A DNA stretch of 18,638 bases. Origin: Bacilli bacterium. GTDB lineage: Bacteria; Bacillota_I; Bacilli_A; RF39; UBA660. The stretch's first letter is position 1; the number at the start of each line of letters is the position of its first letter. The notes under the pieces are model-generated. The model had not been told where the DNA came from. It did not search any database and was given only the letters and a program-made list of their open reading frames with translations. The position numbers and the translations under genes are program-made. Positions 1 to 6,064 of the stretch are shown here, in pieces. The stretch is taken from positions 1-18,638 of the forward strand of contig JAQUEG010000001.1 of NCBI GenBank assembly GCA_028685275.1. The letters run 5' to 3'.

Positions 1-254
1 TTAGTATGGTTTTCATACGATACTTCATCTAAAGTATTTTAAGAAATACTTCTCTCAGTAGCCCACACAGCACCATTAAATGATAGTAATAAACTATCAG
101 TTGAGGCAATTTCTACATCAAATTTAGTTACATGAACAGTTCGCATCCCTACAAACCATGCATACGTTGATACAATTAACACTATTGCACTTAAAGTACA
201 AATAATCATTAGATTTTTCGCACTTCTGTTTTGCCATATTCGTTTATTTGGCAT
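1..254 (-). pseudogene. TasA/SipW-type surface protein paralogue, interrupted by in-frame stop, partial
   Basis: The reading frame starts with ATG at 254, preceded by a GAGGGAGAG ribosome site, and gives 71 residues. They comprise a basic N-terminus, one hydrophobic segment, then STYAWFVGMRTVHVT and FDVEIAST. These match residues 28-50 of the intact neighbour at 2328-3737. A TAA at 39-41 replaces the Lys70 codon (AAA) of the intact copy. After it the same frame continues as NTLDEVSYENHT against the neighbour's STLDDVSYEGHT and runs off the left edge. The simplest reading is a nonsense-mutated copy. A deliberately short 71-aa product, or a sequencing error, cannot be excluded. It has its own promoter, close to that of the intact paralogue. 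Confidence 0.72.
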
Positions 255-382
255 TATACATCGCTCTCCCTCTATTTTTCACCATTTTAATTAAAACCTA
301 AATTTTAATTCCCCCCGTTATGATACATAAAATAATAAAATAACTTCTAATATTTTTATACCCTTTACTATTAATCAAATTT

Positions 383-411
383 ATTGTAACATATATCGAC
401 AAAATATTCAA
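383..411 (-). promoter_or_regulatory. promoter of the interrupted surface-protein paralogue
   Basis: On the minus strand TTGAAT (406-411) is followed after 17 bases by TACAAT (383-388). A TG one base upstream of the -10 makes it an extended -10 promoter. The spacer and flanks, TTTGTCGATATATGTTAC, closely match the promoter region at 3815-3842 in front of the intact paralogue. The leader to the ATG at 254 would be about 120 nt. Region 255-440 holds no other gene. Confidence 0.6.
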
Positions 412-439
412 TATAATTTTAATAAATGATTTTCAAGTC

Positions 440-2080
440 TTATTTCTCTTTATTTTTCAAAGCATTAAATTTTTCAACTTGGGCCATAAACCAAATTTTT
501 TCTACTGTAGTTGCACTATTTTCAATTTCGCTTATTCTTAATAAAAATTTAATTTTTTCAATTAAAACATTTAATTCTTCTGAACTTAAAGTTTCTTCTG
601 TTACATTGATATTATCTAAACGATATCTATTCATAATTACTCTTGCTAAATTATTTTCTTCAAATACTGTTACACCCTTTATTATTACATTAGTAGGATT
701 CATAGCAAATAAATCAAATTCTTCACTATATTTAATCACTTCATCATAAGTAGTCACATCGAATACTTTTTTAATCGCTTTCTTCTTGAAATAATCATAA
801 CTGTAATATAAATGTAGTAATTCAGGAATCGTTAAAGAATTAGTTAAAATAGATAAAACTTTATCATTAAAACATTCTTGTTCATATTCTTTATATAATT
901 CATATAATTCTTTTGCTAATTTAATCGAGGTGCTTTTTAATTCTTTTATGGTATTGTTATTTTTAAACATAAAAAAACCTAAGCCATCACTAAATATTTT
1001 CTTATTTAATTTTTCTAATTTAGCTTCTTTATTATTTATTTTAGTTATAAGTTCTTTTAATCTTTTTAATACCGCTTCCCGTTTTAAATCTTTATCACTA
1101 TTTGGTATTTGTTTTTCATATTCGTTTTTAAAATCATTGAATAATGGCATAAACTTTAAAAAATTATTATATTCTTCTAAATTAATTAATAATTTTTCTA
1201 ATTTTTTATAAAAATTAGTCATCCTTTCTTTATCATCGAAATTTAATGAATCAATCATTAAACTACTATATGCCGTAGTCCTAAATTTACTTTCATCAAA
1301 GTAATTATTAATCTCAATTTCACCATTTTTGGCTAAATCAACAATATCACATATATCTTCTCGCTCAGAACGTCTTAATTTAATATATGCTTTTTTTAAT
1401 TTTTCTAAGCAGTCAGCATAATTATTTAATCTATTTTCTAACATTACTTTTTTTTGTAATTCATTAATATAATTATTAAATTCCTTTTCATATTTTTTAA
1501 TTAATTTTCGAAAATTTAATTCAATATGTTCAATAATTTCTGGATTAACCCAATAAATTTTTTCGAATATTTTAGCAACTTCCTCATAATTACTTTTTTT
1601 CTTGTATCTAACTTCCAAAAAAGAAGTCATATATTCTTTGACATAGCAAGTATATTCAAAATCATTACCAGTAAGTTTAATTCCAACTAATTCAAACTTG
1701 TCTAAAAAATTATTAATAATTTCGTTTAAACAATTAAAATTAAAATAATAATAATTACTTATTTGATATAATAAACTATCAAATCCCATTTTTTCATAAT
1801 AAGTATTGTCAGGGTTTAAAACAAAACGTACATGCTCTAAAGAATTAATTTGATTACTCAATTTTTCTGAATCATTATTCTTTTTTTTAATATTAAATGA
1901 CCTACTCTTCGTATCAAGATATTTTTTTACGCTTCCTTCATATTCATTATATTTATTAATCATATCTGTAATTTTTTCGTTGTATTTTTTTATATCTCTT
2001 TTTGTTTTAGTAGGCATAGTAGAAAGTAAAGTTTTTTTGGCCGTAATATCTTCTTCAATGAACTTTAAAAAGTTACTCAT
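440..2080 (-). CDS. 546-aa coiled-coil protein of unknown function
   Basis: I do not recognise this family. The product is lysine-, glutamate- and asparagine-rich, with no signal peptide or membrane segment, so it is probably cytoplasmic. Charged, heptad-like helical stretches lie at about residues 190-240, 285-325 and 330-400; the rest is mixed, including a more globular C-terminus from about 405. No catalytic motif is visible. Its ATG lies inside the stop region of the 47-aa ORF upstream (the ATGAGTAA junction), which implies translational coupling. It sits between two surface-protein paralogues, all on the minus strand, and ends about 30 bases before the promoter of the interrupted copy, with no terminator between. 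Its position in the putative mobile element suggests accessory cargo. A structural or regulatory partner of the surface proteins is possible but is inferred from position only. Confidence 0.8.
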   Translation of the reverse strand: MSNFLKFIEEDITAKKTLLSTMPTKTKRDIKKYNEKITDMINKYNEYEGSVKKYLDTKSRSFNIKKKNNDSEKLSNQINSLEHVRFVLNPDNTYYEKMGFDSLLYQISNYYYFNFNCLNEIINNFLDKFELVGIKLTGNDFEYTCYVKEYMTSFLEVRYKKKSNYEEVAKIFEKIYWVNPEIIEHIELNFRKLIKKYEKEFNNYINELQKKVMLENRLNNYADCLEKLKKAYIKLRRSEREDICDIVDLAKNGEIEINNYFDESKFRTTAYSSLMIDSLNFDDKERMTNFYKKLEKLLINLEEYNNFLKFMPLFNDFKNEYEKQIPNSDKDLKREAVLKRLKELITKINNKEAKLEKLNKKIFSDGLGFFMFKNNNTIKELKSTSIKLAKELYELYKEYEQECFNDKVLSILTNSLTIPELLHLYYSYDYFKKKAIKKVFDVTTYDEVIKYSEEFDLFAMNPTNVIIKGVTVFEENNLARVIMNRYRLDNINVTEETLSSEELNVLIEKIKFLLRISEIENSATTVEKIWFMAQVEKFNALKNKEK

Positions 2081-2216
2081 TTTGTGCCACCTTCTCCTCT
2101 ACTATTTTCTTTTCTTCTAAAAAGTTTAAGAAATTAATTATTTCCTCATAAACTTTAATTAACTCGCTTAAACTAAGTGTTGACATATCAAAATTTACTT
2201 TTTGTTCTTTAGTCAT
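2073..2216 (-). CDS. 47-aa small protein, coupled to the 546-aa gene
   Basis: This short frame starts with ATG at 2216, after AAAAGGGTGG (a Shine-Dalgarno-like stretch), and ends with TAA at 2073-2075. The stop overlaps the ATG of the next gene by 8 bases. The product begins MTKEQKVNFDMS and then forms one amphipathic, leucine- and glutamate-rich helix ending in a charged tail. The tight overlap and good ribosome site are the main reasons to call it a gene. Its function is unknown; it may be a small partner of the 546-aa protein. Confidence 0.6.
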   Translation of the reverse strand: MTKEQKVNFDMSTLSLSELIKVYEEIINFLNFLEEKKIVEEKVAQNE

Positions 2217-2237
2217 AATACCACCCTTTTTTCTTTT

Positions 2238-2273
2238 TATAAAAGAGTAACCAACCTTGATTACTCTTTTATA
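2238..2273. terminator. perfect 13-bp hairpin between surface gene and small ORF
   Basis: TATAAAAGAGTAA (2238-2250) and TTACTCTTTTATA (2261-2273) are perfect inverted arms around a 10-base loop. It lies downstream of the surface-protein gene and just upstream of the 47-aa ORF. The T-rich tail (TTTTTAT) follows on the plus strand; on the minus strand the stem is followed by AAAAAG. It therefore looks like a terminator for plus-strand transcription, or a hairpin that ends or attenuates minus-strand transcripts without a classical U-tract. Confidence 0.5.
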
Positions 2274-2327
2274 TTTTTATAATCATTACTAACATAACCA
2301 CTGGCTAGTATGTTTAATTTAAATTAA

Positions 2328-3737
2328 TTATTCACGAACAATTACTGTTCTAGTTCTAATAGTTTCATTTTCTGCTGCATCTTTAATAGTATAAGTTACA
2401 TAATATACACCAGGAGTTGCAGTATTTACTTCACTAGTATCAATAATAATATTTTCTGTTATGTCACCATCGCGATCATCTTCAGCAGTAACACCAGGAT
2501 CTTCATATTCTTCACCTTGCGTAATTTCTAATGGATTATCACCTAATATCGAAATCACTGGTGGTGTGAAATCTGGACCTTCATAATCAATATCATCGCC
2601 AGTAAATCTTTCTTTAGTGAATCCAAAACTAACTGAAATTTTTTTACCAATTGACGCTAAATCATAGTTATCAATATCTTGACCTTCAATAAATATATAT
2701 ATTCTTACTTTAGTAATACTATTTGGTGCTAAAGTCATAAATTGTGGACGACTTGTACCTTCTTGTATTTTCATTGTATCAGTAAAATATGGATATGCAT
2801 ATAAGTAATCACTACTGCCTGTATATGTATTATAATCAGTACCATCATAAATATCCACATTATTTGATGAATTTATTTTGGTTTTCACCGCATATGTATT
2901 ATAAGCAGTACCATCAACAACTGGATTACAAGAACCCGCATAAGATGATGGATTAGTAACAACCGAACCAGTTCTTTTCTTACAAGAAACATTATACCAA
3001 CTAATGGCATTCGCCACATGAGCTGTATCGTTTGGTTCCCATATTTGAGCAGTTCGACAAATACCAGTTACATCATCATCTGTTGTACATGTAATACCAG
3101 TAATTTTAGCTGTTTCTTTTGAAGTTCCAATAATACGACCAACTTGGCCAAACGCAACTCGGACTGAATTTTCAATACCAGTATCAGCAACACCATCTGC
3201 TGCCACTATTACTTCCGAATCAACTGTTAAATAAATAGCTTCTTCATCAGCCTCATTTAATTCTTTAATATATTGACTACCAGTAATATTTCTAATAAAC
3301 AAATCAAAAACAACATACCCATCTTGTTCAAGTTGACCAGGAGTATAGTTATCAACACGACTAGTCATCAAACGATAACCACCAGGAGTAGGTGTGAAAC
3401 TAGCCTTTTCATATAATACCATTCGTGAAGAAGTAGCATCCATAATTCCAATTGATGACATTGGTATTAAACCATCGCCACCCCAACTATTAGTGTGCCC
3501 TTCATATGATACATCATCTAAAGTTGATTTTGAAATACTCACTTCATAACTCCATCTTTCCCCATCAAGTGATAATAACAAACTTTCAGTTGATGCTATT
3601 TCTACATCAAAACTAGTTACATGAACAGTTCGCATTCCCACAAACCATGCATATGTTGAAACTACTAATATTACAGCACTTAAAGAACTAACAAAAACAA
3701 GATTTCTAATTCTTCTTACATGCCTTTTTTTTGCCAT
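2328..3737 (-). CDS. cell-surface protein with TasA/SipW-type N-terminus and C-terminal Ig-like domain
   Basis: This is a predicted exported protein of 469 aa. A basic start (MAKKRHVRRIRN) and hydrophobic segment (about 13-33) lead into STYAWFVGMRTV, the style of SipW-dependent TasA/camelysin-like precursors. A beta-rich body follows; YVVFDLFIRN (141-150) and VRIYIFIEGQDID (344-356) resemble conserved strands of that group. Cysteines 217, 227, 252 and 270 lie in a variable loop and could form disulfides. From about 393, TPPVISILGD..DPGVTAEDDRDGDIT..TPGVYYVTYTIKDAAEN is a typical bacterial Ig-like (DUF5011-type) domain. There is no LPxTG motif or C-terminal membrane anchor, so it may stay anchored by the N-terminal segment or be assembled extracellularly. 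The start is supported by AAAGGGAG upstream. A truncated paralogue lies at 1-254. Fibre or adhesion function is inferred. Confidence 0.82.
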   Translation of the reverse strand: MAKKRHVRRIRNLVFVSSLSAVILVVSTYAWFVGMRTVHVTSFDVEIASTESLLLSLDGERWSYEVSISKSTLDDVSYEGHTNSWGGDGLIPMSSIGIMDATSSRMVLYEKASFTPTPGGYRLMTSRVDNYTPGQLEQDGYVVFDLFIRNITGSQYIKELNEADEEAIYLTVDSEVIVAADGVADTGIENSVRVAFGQVGRIIGTSKETAKITGITCTTDDDVTGICRTAQIWEPNDTAHVANAISWYNVSCKKRTGSVVTNPSSYAGSCNPVVDGTAYNTYAVKTKINSSNNVDIYDGTDYNTYTGSSDYLYAYPYFTDTMKIQEGTSRPQFMTLAPNSITKVRIYIFIEGQDIDNYDLASIGKKISVSFGFTKERFTGDDIDYEGPDFTPPVISILGDNPLEITQGEEYEDPGVTAEDDRDGDITENIIIDTSEVNTATPGVYYVTYTIKDAAENETIRTRTVIVRE

Positions 3738-3814
3738 AAATACATCGCTCCCTTTACTTTTTAAAAATAATTTTTATTAAGATATCCTCGTTACCTTATA
3801 TTATATATAATTTT

Positions 3815-3842
3815 ATTTTAACATAAATCGACAAATTGTCAA
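3815..3842 (-). promoter_or_regulatory. promoter of the surface-protein gene, with overlapping palindrome
   Basis: On the minus strand TTGACA (3837-3842) is followed after 16 bases by TAAAAT (3815-3820), with TG one base upstream of the -10. TTGACAATTTGTCGA (3828-3842) is a 15-bp near-palindrome with one mismatch and covers the -35 box, so it could be an operator. The block TTTGTCGAT.TATGTTA.AAT is shared with the promoter at 383-411. It begins 17 bases after the recombinase stop codon, so the surface gene need not depend on recombinase transcription. Confidence 0.65.
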
Positions 3843-3859
3843 TAATATTGCCATTTTTT

Positions 3860-5281
3860 TTAATTATTAAATTTTATCTTCATAATTATAACTTCCTGCG
3901 CTTCTTTTTTTGCCTCGATAACCTTTATAAATCTTTCTAAAAATATTTTCTTTTCCATATTATTTAAGTAATCCCAATTTAATTTAATATCAATAATTTT
4001 TTCTTTTATTTTAGCCATTGGTAATAATAATAAATTATTACTTTGTAATTCATTATTAAAAGTTAATAATTTATTTTCTAAACTATCAATTAAAACTTTA
4101 TAATCAGTAAGAGATATCCTTCCTTCTAAAAATAAATTTCGTATTTCACTTTTTTTATTTTTTATTTTATTAATTTTACGTTTTATTTTTAAATTATTTT
4201 TTTTAGGGTCATCAGTAATAAAAATAGAATCATCTAATAATAATTTTGGTAATTGACTTAAATAATTAACAAAAGTTTTTTCAAGCTTTGCATGTGAAAA
4301 ACCAGGAGCTGTACAAATATTATTGTTTCGTCCATTACAAATATAAGTTATATATGTTTTTCCATTTTTAATTTGTTGTTTAGCATGCATTTTACTACCG
4401 CAATTACCACATTTCAAAACATGAAAATAATAAGTATTTTCACTAGAATACCGTTTCGTATTAAAATTGGATCTGTTATTCAATAGTTTTTGTACATTAT
4501 CATATTTTCTTTTTTCGATTATTGGTAAATGTTTAGTTCCATCTGCTAAAAAGGTTTTATGTTTTCGCCTAACACCATATCTAACTTTACCAACATATAA
4601 AGGATTAGTTAAAATGGATTTGATCGTAGAGGGTGCCCATTTGCCCCCTCTTTTCGTTGGTACTTTTTCCATATTAAATAATTTACTAATTTTTAACATT
4701 GAATAATTAGCTAAAAATAAATTATAAATGCGATTAACTAATTTAGCTTCTTCCTGGTTTATTTCTAGTTTACCTTCACCAATTATATAATTATAACCGT
4801 ATACCCCATTAGTATTAGTATAATTTCCTTCTTTAGTTTTTTGTTCATAACCAAAACTAATTCTTTCCGCTAAGTTTTCTCTTTCAAACTCCGCAAAAGT
4901 ACCAAGAATTTTAACAAACATTCTTCCTACCGCATTACTTGTATCTAATTTTTCGGTATGAGAGTTTAATGAACAATCATAAATTTCTAATAAATTAATT
5001 AATTCCATTAAATTATATAATGACCTAGTTAAACGATCTAATTTATATACTAAAACATTTTTTATTTTACCAATTTTAATATCATTCAACATCCTATTTA
5101 TTTCTGGTCGATCTTTAATGTTCTTACCGCTAATGCCGTCATCAATATAATAATCAAAAATATCCCAATCATTTAACTCTGCATACTTAGTTAGTTTTTC
5201 CTTTTGCGCATTAAGAGAAAAACCTTCATTAACTTGCTCTTCGGTCGAAACACGAATATATATACCAGTTAATAATAACAT
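3860..5281 (-). CDS. large serine recombinase (site-specific integrase)
   Basis: The 473-aa product catalyses DNA cutting and strand exchange through a covalent phosphoserine link. The resolvase domain occupies about 1-145: GIYIRVSTEEQ supplies catalytic Ser12 with Arg10, and YKLDRLTRS (79-87) carries the conserved Asp and Arg residues. The Recombinase domain (about 155-265) contains NGVYGYNY and WAPSTIKSILTNPLYVGK. A zinc ribbon uses Cys291, Cys294, Cys315 and Cys323, and a lysine-rich coiled coil spans about 360-415. Length and domain order are normal for phage, ICE and IME integrases, so it looks intact. The start has GGAG five bases before the ATG, overlapping the stop of a 29-codon ORF. 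The gene lies directly beside a dacF gene cut in mid-frame, as expected for an integrase at the end of its element. A DNA-inversion role near the surface genes is a less likely alternative. Confidence 0.93.
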   Translation of the reverse strand: MLLLTGIYIRVSTEEQVNEGFSLNAQKEKLTKYAELNDWDIFDYYIDDGISGKNIKDRPEINRMLNDIKIGKIKNVLVYKLDRLTRSLYNLMELINLLEIYDCSLNSHTEKLDTSNAVGRMFVKILGTFAEFERENLAERISFGYEQKTKEGNYTNTNGVYGYNYIIGEGKLEINQEEAKLVNRIYNLFLANYSMLKISKLFNMEKVPTKRGGKWAPSTIKSILTNPLYVGKVRYGVRRKHKTFLADGTKHLPIIEKRKYDNVQKLLNNRSNFNTKRYSSENTYYFHVLKCGNCGSKMHAKQQIKNGKTYITYICNGRNNNICTAPGFSHAKLEKTFVNYLSQLPKLLLDDSIFITDDPKKNNLKIKRKINKIKNKKSEIRNLFLEGRISLTDYKVLIDSLENKLLTFNNELQSNNLLLLPMAKIKEKIIDIKLNWDYLNNMEKKIFLERFIKVIEAKKEAQEVIIMKIKFNN

Positions 5282-5289
5282 TTTTACTC

Positions 5290-5379
5290 CTACTTCGTTT
5301 TATCTTCTAGCATTTTTGGAATACTAGTAGTTAAAAAAAAACGCATGATTTCCATTTGCAATTCTTTATTTATTAACAT
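5290..5379 (-). CDS. 29-aa leader ORF before the recombinase, possible SHOCT-like remnant
   Basis: The ATG at 5379 opens a 29-residue frame ending in TAG at 5290-5292; its stop is part of the ribosome site of the recombinase gene. It overlaps the end of the truncated dacF frame by 14 bases. The sequence NKELQMEIMRFFLTTSIPKMLEDK resembles, from memory, the start of the small SHOCT-type proteins often encoded beside Bacillota serine recombinases, which are longer (about 55-90 aa). Its own ribosome site is poor (GGGGAT about 11 bases upstream). It may be a real small protein, a coupling leader or a decayed gene. Confidence 0.4.
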   Translation of the reverse strand: MLINKELQMEIMRFFLTTSIPKMLEDKTK

Positions 5380-6064
5380 ATATATTCTTATCCCCACTTT
5401 CTAAAAATTTATAGTAATATAAACATACAATTTTATTAGTATTAACTAGCCAAAATTTATCATCAGTATTTTCTCTTAAATAAGTTTCATATATTGACGT
5501 ATATTTTAATACATCCTCATGTTTGACTAATTCACGAGCCATAACTGCCATATCATAAGCAGAAGAATAATGATTAGCAGCATCTAAACCGCTTGCATTC
5601 TTAAAATTAGTATTTTTTAAACCTAGTTCCTTTGCTCTTTTATTCATTAACTCCACAAAATGATCTTCACTTCCCCCAATTCTTTCCGCTAAAGCAACAG
5701 TAGCATCATTACCAGAAGCAATTGCTACTCCTTTAAACAAATCTTCGACACTCATTACTTCTCCTGCCTCTAAATAAATTTGACTACCTCCCATACTAGA
5801 AGCATGCGTTGAAATTTTAATTAATTCATTCCATTTTAAATTACCGTTTTCAATTGCTTCAATATATAAAAGCATACTCATGATTTTAGTCATTGACGCA
5901 GGAGCATGTTTACTATGAATATCTTTAGAATAAAGAATAGTCCCCGTACTAGCTTCCATTAATAAAGCACTTTTCGCCTTTGGTGCTAGTTCTAATGTCT
6001 CAGCTTTAACATAAAATATAAACACCATAAAACAAAATAATAATATTAATATTTTTTTCATCAT
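5366..6064 (-). pseudogene. dacF: D-alanyl-D-alanine carboxypeptidase (DacF/PBP5 type), 3'-truncated at element junction
   Basis: This penicillin-binding peptidase family (S11) trims the terminal D-Ala from peptidoglycan stem peptides outside the membrane. A signal peptide (about 1-21) leads into the catalytic domain. The SxxK motif is SMTK (57-60), and the SxN motif is SGN (117-119). Up to DDKFWLVNTNKIV (residue 213) the sequence follows the family; normally VRFY..VDGLKTG comes next. Here it changes to CLYYYKFLESGDKNIYVNK and stops at 232, so the KTG active-site motif and C-terminal domain are absent. No KTG coding sequence was found in the next 160 bases. The 3' part was probably displaced by the element carrying the adjacent serine recombinase. 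Of two tandem ATGs, the second (6061) is better spaced from GAGGTG. The protein should lack peptidase activity. Confidence 0.85.
5415..5445. other. candidate attachment-site junction inside dacF
   Basis: The dacF reading frame keeps family homology down to the codons for NTNKIV (about 5426-5443 on the minus strand) and then loses it. The recombinase gene begins about 145 bases further on. This is where a serine-integrase crossover is expected. The other half-site, with the remaining dacF coding sequence, should lie beyond the left edge. The exact core cannot be set from one junction. Confidence 0.5.

Follow-up and report, generated by a model that had tools for sequence, protein, structure and literature searches.

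Sporulation genes can be interrupted by intervening elements. As outlined in PMC4191935 and PMC5025042, these include skin in sigK, SP-beta in spsM, vfbin in spoVFB and vrin in spoVR, and excision of SP-beta or skin in the mother cell restores the interrupted gene. A separate survey describes, in its main text, how distantly related large serine recombinases converge on one conserved site inside a gene (PMC10083194).

We analyzed an 18,638-base stretch of DNA (the window) from a member of the Bacilli in the RF39 group. The window is the entire contig C142 of a draft genome (G000) that is 82% complete and comprises 873,839 bases on 166 contigs. The insertion that interrupts its conserved dacF gene is genuine, and the inserted element belongs to a family of mobile cassettes. 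Our reading, to which we assign a probability of about 0.85, is that a mobile element entered dacF in a single crossover, catalyzed by the large serine recombinase that it encodes, at the AA within the Lys codon of an NTNK motif. As a target of such elements dacF is new to the literature that we searched: we found no paper joining dacF or carboxypeptidases with the insertion of a serine recombinase or integrase (among the papers listed, judged in part by title), and nothing on RF39 with a serine recombinase.

The split dacF gene and its attachment site

The 5' part of dacF, up to NTNK, lies on the reverse strand at 5366..6064, where an open reading frame (6064 to 5366) matches positions 10-199 of the 239-position Peptidase_S11 profile. 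Host sequence ends at 5433 and the rest is a tail encoded by the element, so that the protein ends in WLVNTNKIV and 19 unrelated residues (CLYYYKFLESGDKNIYVNK). The original prediction, made from the DNA letters, had the frame following its family to NTNKIV before the unrelated residues begin. Frame and profile agree with this except for the final IV, which is already encoded by the element because divergence begins just past the AA at 5434-5433. The KTG motif is lost, as the prediction stated, and a large serine recombinase gene does begin at the truncation point, with its start at 5281, 84 bases past the dacF stop codon.

Searching G000 for PF00768 gave matches in three places: a second carboxypeptidase on contig C47, the dacF half in the window, and the missing 3' half on contig C121 (4811-4954, reverse strand). 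This contig (locus L014) is 5,237 bases long. The 3' half on it reads KLVRFYEGVDGIKTG..., in a frame that is open until a stop at position 4388; past the junction, foreign DNA occupies the rest of the contig from position 4937 and includes the start of an exported-looking protein. The remainder of dacF (VDGLKTG onward), which was expected beyond the left edge of the window, thus exists but sits on C121, and the case in which no dacF 3' fragment occurs anywhere in the genome, named in the prediction as evidence against it, is excluded.

The known part of the element totals 5,733 bases, comprising positions 1..5432 of the window and 4937-5237 of C121, with an unsequenced gap between the two. Its recombinase gene (3860..5281, reverse strand) encodes 473 aa with the domain order Resolvase, Recombinase and Zn ribbon (PF00239, PF07508 and PF13408 [Zn_ribbon_recom], all above cut-off), and the protein matches the TP901-1 integrase in PDB. 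By this domain order and its attP arms, the predicted element classifies as a large serine recombinase (serine integrase) element. The cargo, all on the reverse strand, consists of a 469-aa surface protein with a C-terminal Ig-like domain (PF16403; 2328..3737), a 546-aa protein for which no family was found (440..2080), and, at the contig edge, a fragment of a second, similar surface protein (3..254; 68% identical over 75 aa, with 1 TAA).

The crossover probably took place at the dinucleotide AA at 5433..5434 (reverse strand), the first two bases of the NTNK Lys codon. The attL site around it (5407..5446, reverse strand) has a host half ending in AATACTAAT, then AA, then an element arm, AATTGTATGTTTATATTACTATAA. 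In relatives with intact dacF the attB-type site is ACTAAT-AA-ATTAGT with small variations, its codons reading N-T-N-K-L-V. In six elements both ends are available, and for these we compared the element arm of attR to the reverse complement of the attL arm at offsets from -10 to +10. Centered on AA, the arms of all six elements matched, at 20 (window and C121), 20, 19, 21, 16 and 20 of 26 positions, as against means of 7.2 to 12.0 at the remaining offsets; the symmetry was weakest in L049, with 16 matches at the center versus 15 at offset +4. A short direct repeat had been predicted at the junction, and we found instead a 2-bp common core inside an imperfect 6-bp inverted repeat. One crossover between attP and attB in the NTNKLV block of dacF would produce attL and attR, and the element would move as a circle. 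A second att-like stretch, sharing TTTATATTTTGCAATA with the attL core, occurs about 45 bases past that core in L034-L037, L044 and L048.

The two dacF halves lie on separate contigs of an assembly in draft form, which is also what an assembly artefact or a chimaeric bin would give, with dacF pieces that do not flank one element. We consider this extremely improbable. The attP arms from the two separately assembled contigs mirror each other at the crossover (20/26), so C142 and C121 carry matching ends of one element. The flanking gene order of the two contigs is moreover the same as in locus L112 (genome G038), where dacF is unsplit and the order is a pyrimidine-phosphorylase-like gene, VanY, dacF, a gene that we take to be DUF378-like, and a GerS-like lipoprotein gene. 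For the family the artefact is refuted, as both halves and the element are on one contig in L036, L038, L046, L049 and L054, with element sizes of 9.6, 3.2, 4.7, 3.2 and 6.8 kb, respectively. The GerS-like gene of G038 is present only as a 99-aa piece beside a Mob_Pre relaxase gene (L112, 5329-7031), and is perhaps another insertion in a germination gene.

When the DacF half was searched in 31 genomes (G000 included), 26 matched. In the nine best relatives (L005-L013) the dacF frames are open and 283-396 aa long, the one of 283 aa (L006) being cut by a contig end. Relatives with an empty site and intact dacF, as called for by the original prediction, were therefore found at nine loci, and at L112 with the same gene order, but none is of the same species: no same-species intact DacF was found, and the closest intact ones among the matches listed (the best 120 of 5,844) are 74-76% identical. 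Among the same matches, a truncated form of 231 aa represents the 90% cluster to which the window's DacF belongs (3 sequences, 6 contigs). KTG is present in 94 and absent in 26 of these best 120 of 5,844 DacF homologs, which were retrieved with a query that is itself truncated and may favor truncated forms a little. All 26 KTG-less homologs, examined as protein sequences only, diverge directly past WLVNTN[K/N], and because they depart at one point the truncation at NTNK is not due to chance. Thus 26 of the 120 best-listed DacF homologs are broken genes that pipelines annotate as plain carboxypeptidases.

Related cassettes in dacF and other genes

A recombinase scan of genome contigs yielded 19 loci, 16 of them 52-66% identical. 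A dacF 5' half is present at 12 of these 16 close loci, only a 3' half at L039 and L047, and neither half at L042; the recombinase of L044 integrated outside dacF, at a junction reading ACGAAT-AA. Seven of 291 family genomes drawn (G000 included) have such a recombinase, defined by 52% or more identity over at least 356 residues, and in all seven it lies beside a dacF 5' half. An eighth genome, G090, has one that is cut by a contig end. In a FastTree recombinase tree, which left out L049 and L055, the 18 dacF loci form one clade of 20 with L042 and L044 (support 0.744).

The recombinases of L034, L035, L036, L037, L044 and L048 are 99-100% identical to one another (L034 and L036 carry the same element), whereas the dacF halves at the five of these loci that have one are only 50-73% identical. 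Near-identical recombinases in hosts whose dacF genes are so divergent indicate that the elements move between species. The cargo is varied–for example, argininosuccinate synthase and lyase in L046 (where the recombinase is near the dacF 3' half), a PfkB-inositol phosphatase fusion in L049 (where the recombinase is inverted and truncated to 268 aa), tyrosyl-tRNA synthetase in L039, a Schlafen/AlbA-type protein in L038, and an MBOAT acyltransferase and a DHHW protein in L054. L048 carries a PLD-helicase and a type IIG restriction enzyme, and the second dacF half was not found within its 11.7 kb. The central claim of the original prediction, insertion of the element inside dacF, is upheld by the 3' half and other element end on C121, the mirrored attP arms, the unsplit relatives, and the recurrence of the arrangement in many species.

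A second position in dacF is occupied by other recombinases. We surveyed 20 of the 64 family genomes in which the match to dacF was not strong. In 7 of the 20 (G002, G009, G034, G035, G039, G051 and G064) the gene is interrupted near residue 120, at an SGN motif. A different serine recombinase abuts the dacF 3' piece in five of these seven genomes (loci L069, L073, L075, L076 and L078). The three complete recombinases of this type are 555-563 aa long, and that of L069 is 25% identical. The complete element in L073 is about 10 kb long and includes a gene for an APH-family phosphotransferase (PF01636) and one that is presumably AlaRS-like. In G002 and G051 (L080-L083) the contigs on either side stop precisely at the SGN site, as might be expected of a sample with both empty and filled sites. 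G064 also has spoIVA cut near residue 122 (L117, L118): a third serine recombinase adjoins its C-terminal half, and past its N-terminal half lies a Mob_Pre relaxase gene. The spoIVA contigs of G002 (L119, L120) end at the same point.

Six sister recombinases (L063-L068) form a separate clade (FastTree support 0.939) and, as judged mostly by eye, lie beside pieces of one ABC-transporter ATPase gene that is broken past its VTHD motif. The N-terminal piece is at L065, L067 and L068, the C-terminal piece at L063, L064 and L067, and L066 has only the neighboring permease. PF00005 confirms the ATPase piece of L065, and the short piece of L067 has no match to it. Sortase-like, collagen-like or signal-peptidase-like genes were seen by eye near these loci.

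Sporulation context and the microprotein upstream of the recombinase

Gene order in the family, together with the presence of Spo0A and SpoIVA, marks dacF as a sporulation-linked gene that the element splits. The order dacF, spoIIAA-sigF-spoVAC is found in L069, L076, L054 and L039, where SigF and SpoIIAA score under their curated cut-offs and SpoVAC is above its cut-off in L076. Spo0A is present in 12/12 other family relatives tested and SpoIVA in 11/12, and SpoIVA is also present in 14 of the 15 genomes with split dacF. Neither Spo0A nor SpoIVA was found in G000, and on C142 and C121, the contigs of the window's own dacF, the gene has no neighboring spo operon. G000 does have genes that we take to be spoIIAA- and sigF-like (on C87) and ftsZ-, spoIIGA-, sigE- and sigG-like (on C72). 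The original prediction supposed that NTNK was chosen for its conservation; since dacF is linked to sporulation, this link explains tolerance of the insertion better than conservation alone.

Two promoter-like motifs recur upstream of the microprotein described below: GAATA[AT]T-N13-[CT][CG]TAT[AG]AT in 8 of 16 dacF-type loci checked, and GCATA[AT][AT]-N14-[TC]CTATACTT in 5 of the 16. Neither occurs in the window, L054, L059 or six distant loci, and the strict element-type motif is upstream of 0/11 spoIVA genes. Regular-expression scans for sigma E, K, F and G promoters upstream of dacF or the recombinase operon gave nothing above shuffles. The sigma-E-like consensus is KMATATT, 13-15 bases, CATANANT, and scoring with it kept 32 of 45 dacF, 18 of 20 spoIVA and 19 of 22 recombinase loci. 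As a descriptive measure only, because the score was designed after seeing the sequences with a consensus from general knowledge and related loci are not independent, a score of at least 11 was found upstream of 14/18 spoIVA genes, 18/32 dacF genes (15/28 without L106, L108, L109 and L110, which are second copies of L005, L009, L013 and L008, respectively) and 12/19 recombinase operons, and in 14.7% of 279 control genes, among them dacF and recombinase genes from these very loci. In the window, dacF scores 9 (control mean 9.56) and the recombinase operon 11. We regard these putative sigma-E-like motifs, upstream of dacF and of the recombinase operon, as a lead, not proof.

The window has a conserved microprotein ORF of 29 aa (5290..5379, reverse strand), which overlaps the end of the dacF frame and ends 8 bases before the recombinase. 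Like the sporulation context, it went unnoticed in the original prediction. Members of this microprotein family are 28-44 aa long, have the pattern [IM][MV].FF[LM].TS[IV]P[RK], and lie directly upstream of the recombinase. They occur in 20 of the 21 dacF-type loci with upstream DNA (L047 has none, and in six of the 20 the element is nearly identical); none was found in L049. The versions in L038 and L041 lack an evident standard start codon. The microprotein is also present at six more distant loci (L026, L027, L030, L031 = L056, L032 and L033), but at 0/6 ABC-type loci and 0/3 of the SGN-type loci scanned (L069, L073, L078).

Pfam gave no match for any of five microprotein versions. All four versions compared with phrog_30936, a profile of unknown function without a curated cut-off, matched it (E-values 2e-5 to 5e-3), the matches being partial and covering 16-23 of 50 residues. 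A search of the 291 genomes with this profile gave 12 matches in 11 genomes, all beside a serine recombinase or a remnant of one: 10 just upstream of a serine recombinase and two before a decayed one. G000 was below threshold in this search, and 0/14 control genomes matched. L092 and L093, from two species of one genus, have an intact microprotein ORF before a decayed recombinase, at a site other than dacF. We took a phage tblastn match of one microprotein version to be chance (E = 5, not adjoining that phage's integrase), and the annotation tables for three further phage integrases show no annotated small gene directly upstream.

The microprotein would work with the recombinase, most likely as a directionality factor. 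Within its 12-codon motif (20 distinct DNAs), pairwise differences at codon positions 1, 2 and 3 are 0.23, 0.155 and 0.503. Such conservation of amino acids, with change mostly at third positions, points to a protein that acts and not only to translation, and so argues against a leader peptide or inhibitor that sets the level of recombinase. We nevertheless give that explanation a little under an even chance, because the microprotein ends just before the recombinase start, like a translated leader, and is shorter than the directionality factors that we know of (SprB is about 58 aa). At about 30 aa it would be, to our knowledge, the smallest directionality factor.

Possible excision in the mother cell and comparison with known systems

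By analogy with skin and SP-beta, the window element could be a removable insert that is excised during development, an interpretation that we hold tentatively and would bet slightly against. The mother cell, which is doomed, may excise the element and rejoin dacF there, and the spore would keep it; removal in this cell is suggested by the link of dacF to sporulation and by the sigma-E-like motif on the recombinase operons of many elements. A broader version, in which cassettes land in mother-cell genes, are excised there with a microprotein of about 30 aa, ride in spores cheaply and hop between species, strikes us as unlikely.

The window element could also, at even odds in our estimate, be an ordinary integrative element in a dispensable site, with dacF unneeded for growth, a nearly neutral insertion, rare and unregulated excision, and no developmental role. 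Cargo without a link to sporulation agrees with this, as do the secondary integration outside dacF in L044 and the fact that the sister recombinases sit in a non-spore gene, encoding an ABC-transporter ATPase. So does genome G037 (L058), where the dacF 5' half lacks about 20 codons beside the junction and its frame is broken: excision cannot restore dacF in G037, and we rate developmental excision lower for this reason. G064 poses a difficulty for an ordinary element, since spoIVA and dacF are both cut there and sporulation should end without excision. A further difficulty is that the window and five relatives keep both dacF halves intact, under the same constraint as unsplit genes. In these six, the KTG half is conserved relative to the other half to the degree seen in 19 intact genes (residuals -4.9 to +1.3, sd 6.0), and 22-24 of 24 invariant residues are kept. 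A recent insertion gives the same picture, so the intact, constrained halves fit removable inserts and recent insertion alike.

Under our main reading, insertion into dacF by the element's own large serine recombinase, the dacF elements supply naturally occurring attB/attP pairs of a recombinase clade that is new, and they bring to light a conserved microprotein with a possible role in steering the enzyme. In the layout described in PMC6222049, SCC and ECC likewise combine a serine recombinase with variable cargo at one chromosomal site; unlike them, the dacF elements have a single recombinase instead of a ccrAB pair, and their target is inside dacF, which is disrupted. We rejected membership of the window element in SCC or another cassette chromosome, because its recombinase falls below the curated CcrA/B/C models: its best NCBIfam match is CcrB, at 187 bits versus a cut-off of 900.

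The dacF loci resemble those of PMC10083194, which reports distantly related recombinases at one conserved site inside a gene; that survey is of isolate genomes, and its main text never uses the word 'carboxypeptidase'. In gene context the dacF elements resemble the sporulation intervening elements as outlined in PMC4191935 and PMC5025042, which are also serine recombinase elements inside sporulation genes. Unlike skin and SP-beta, the dacF elements are small cassettes with varied cargo, distributed across species and accompanied by a partner peptide of about 30 aa, and their excision is a step that we infer. If they are indeed excised, sporulation intervening elements would extend from a few prophage relics to horizontally spreading cassettes in uncultured bacteria.
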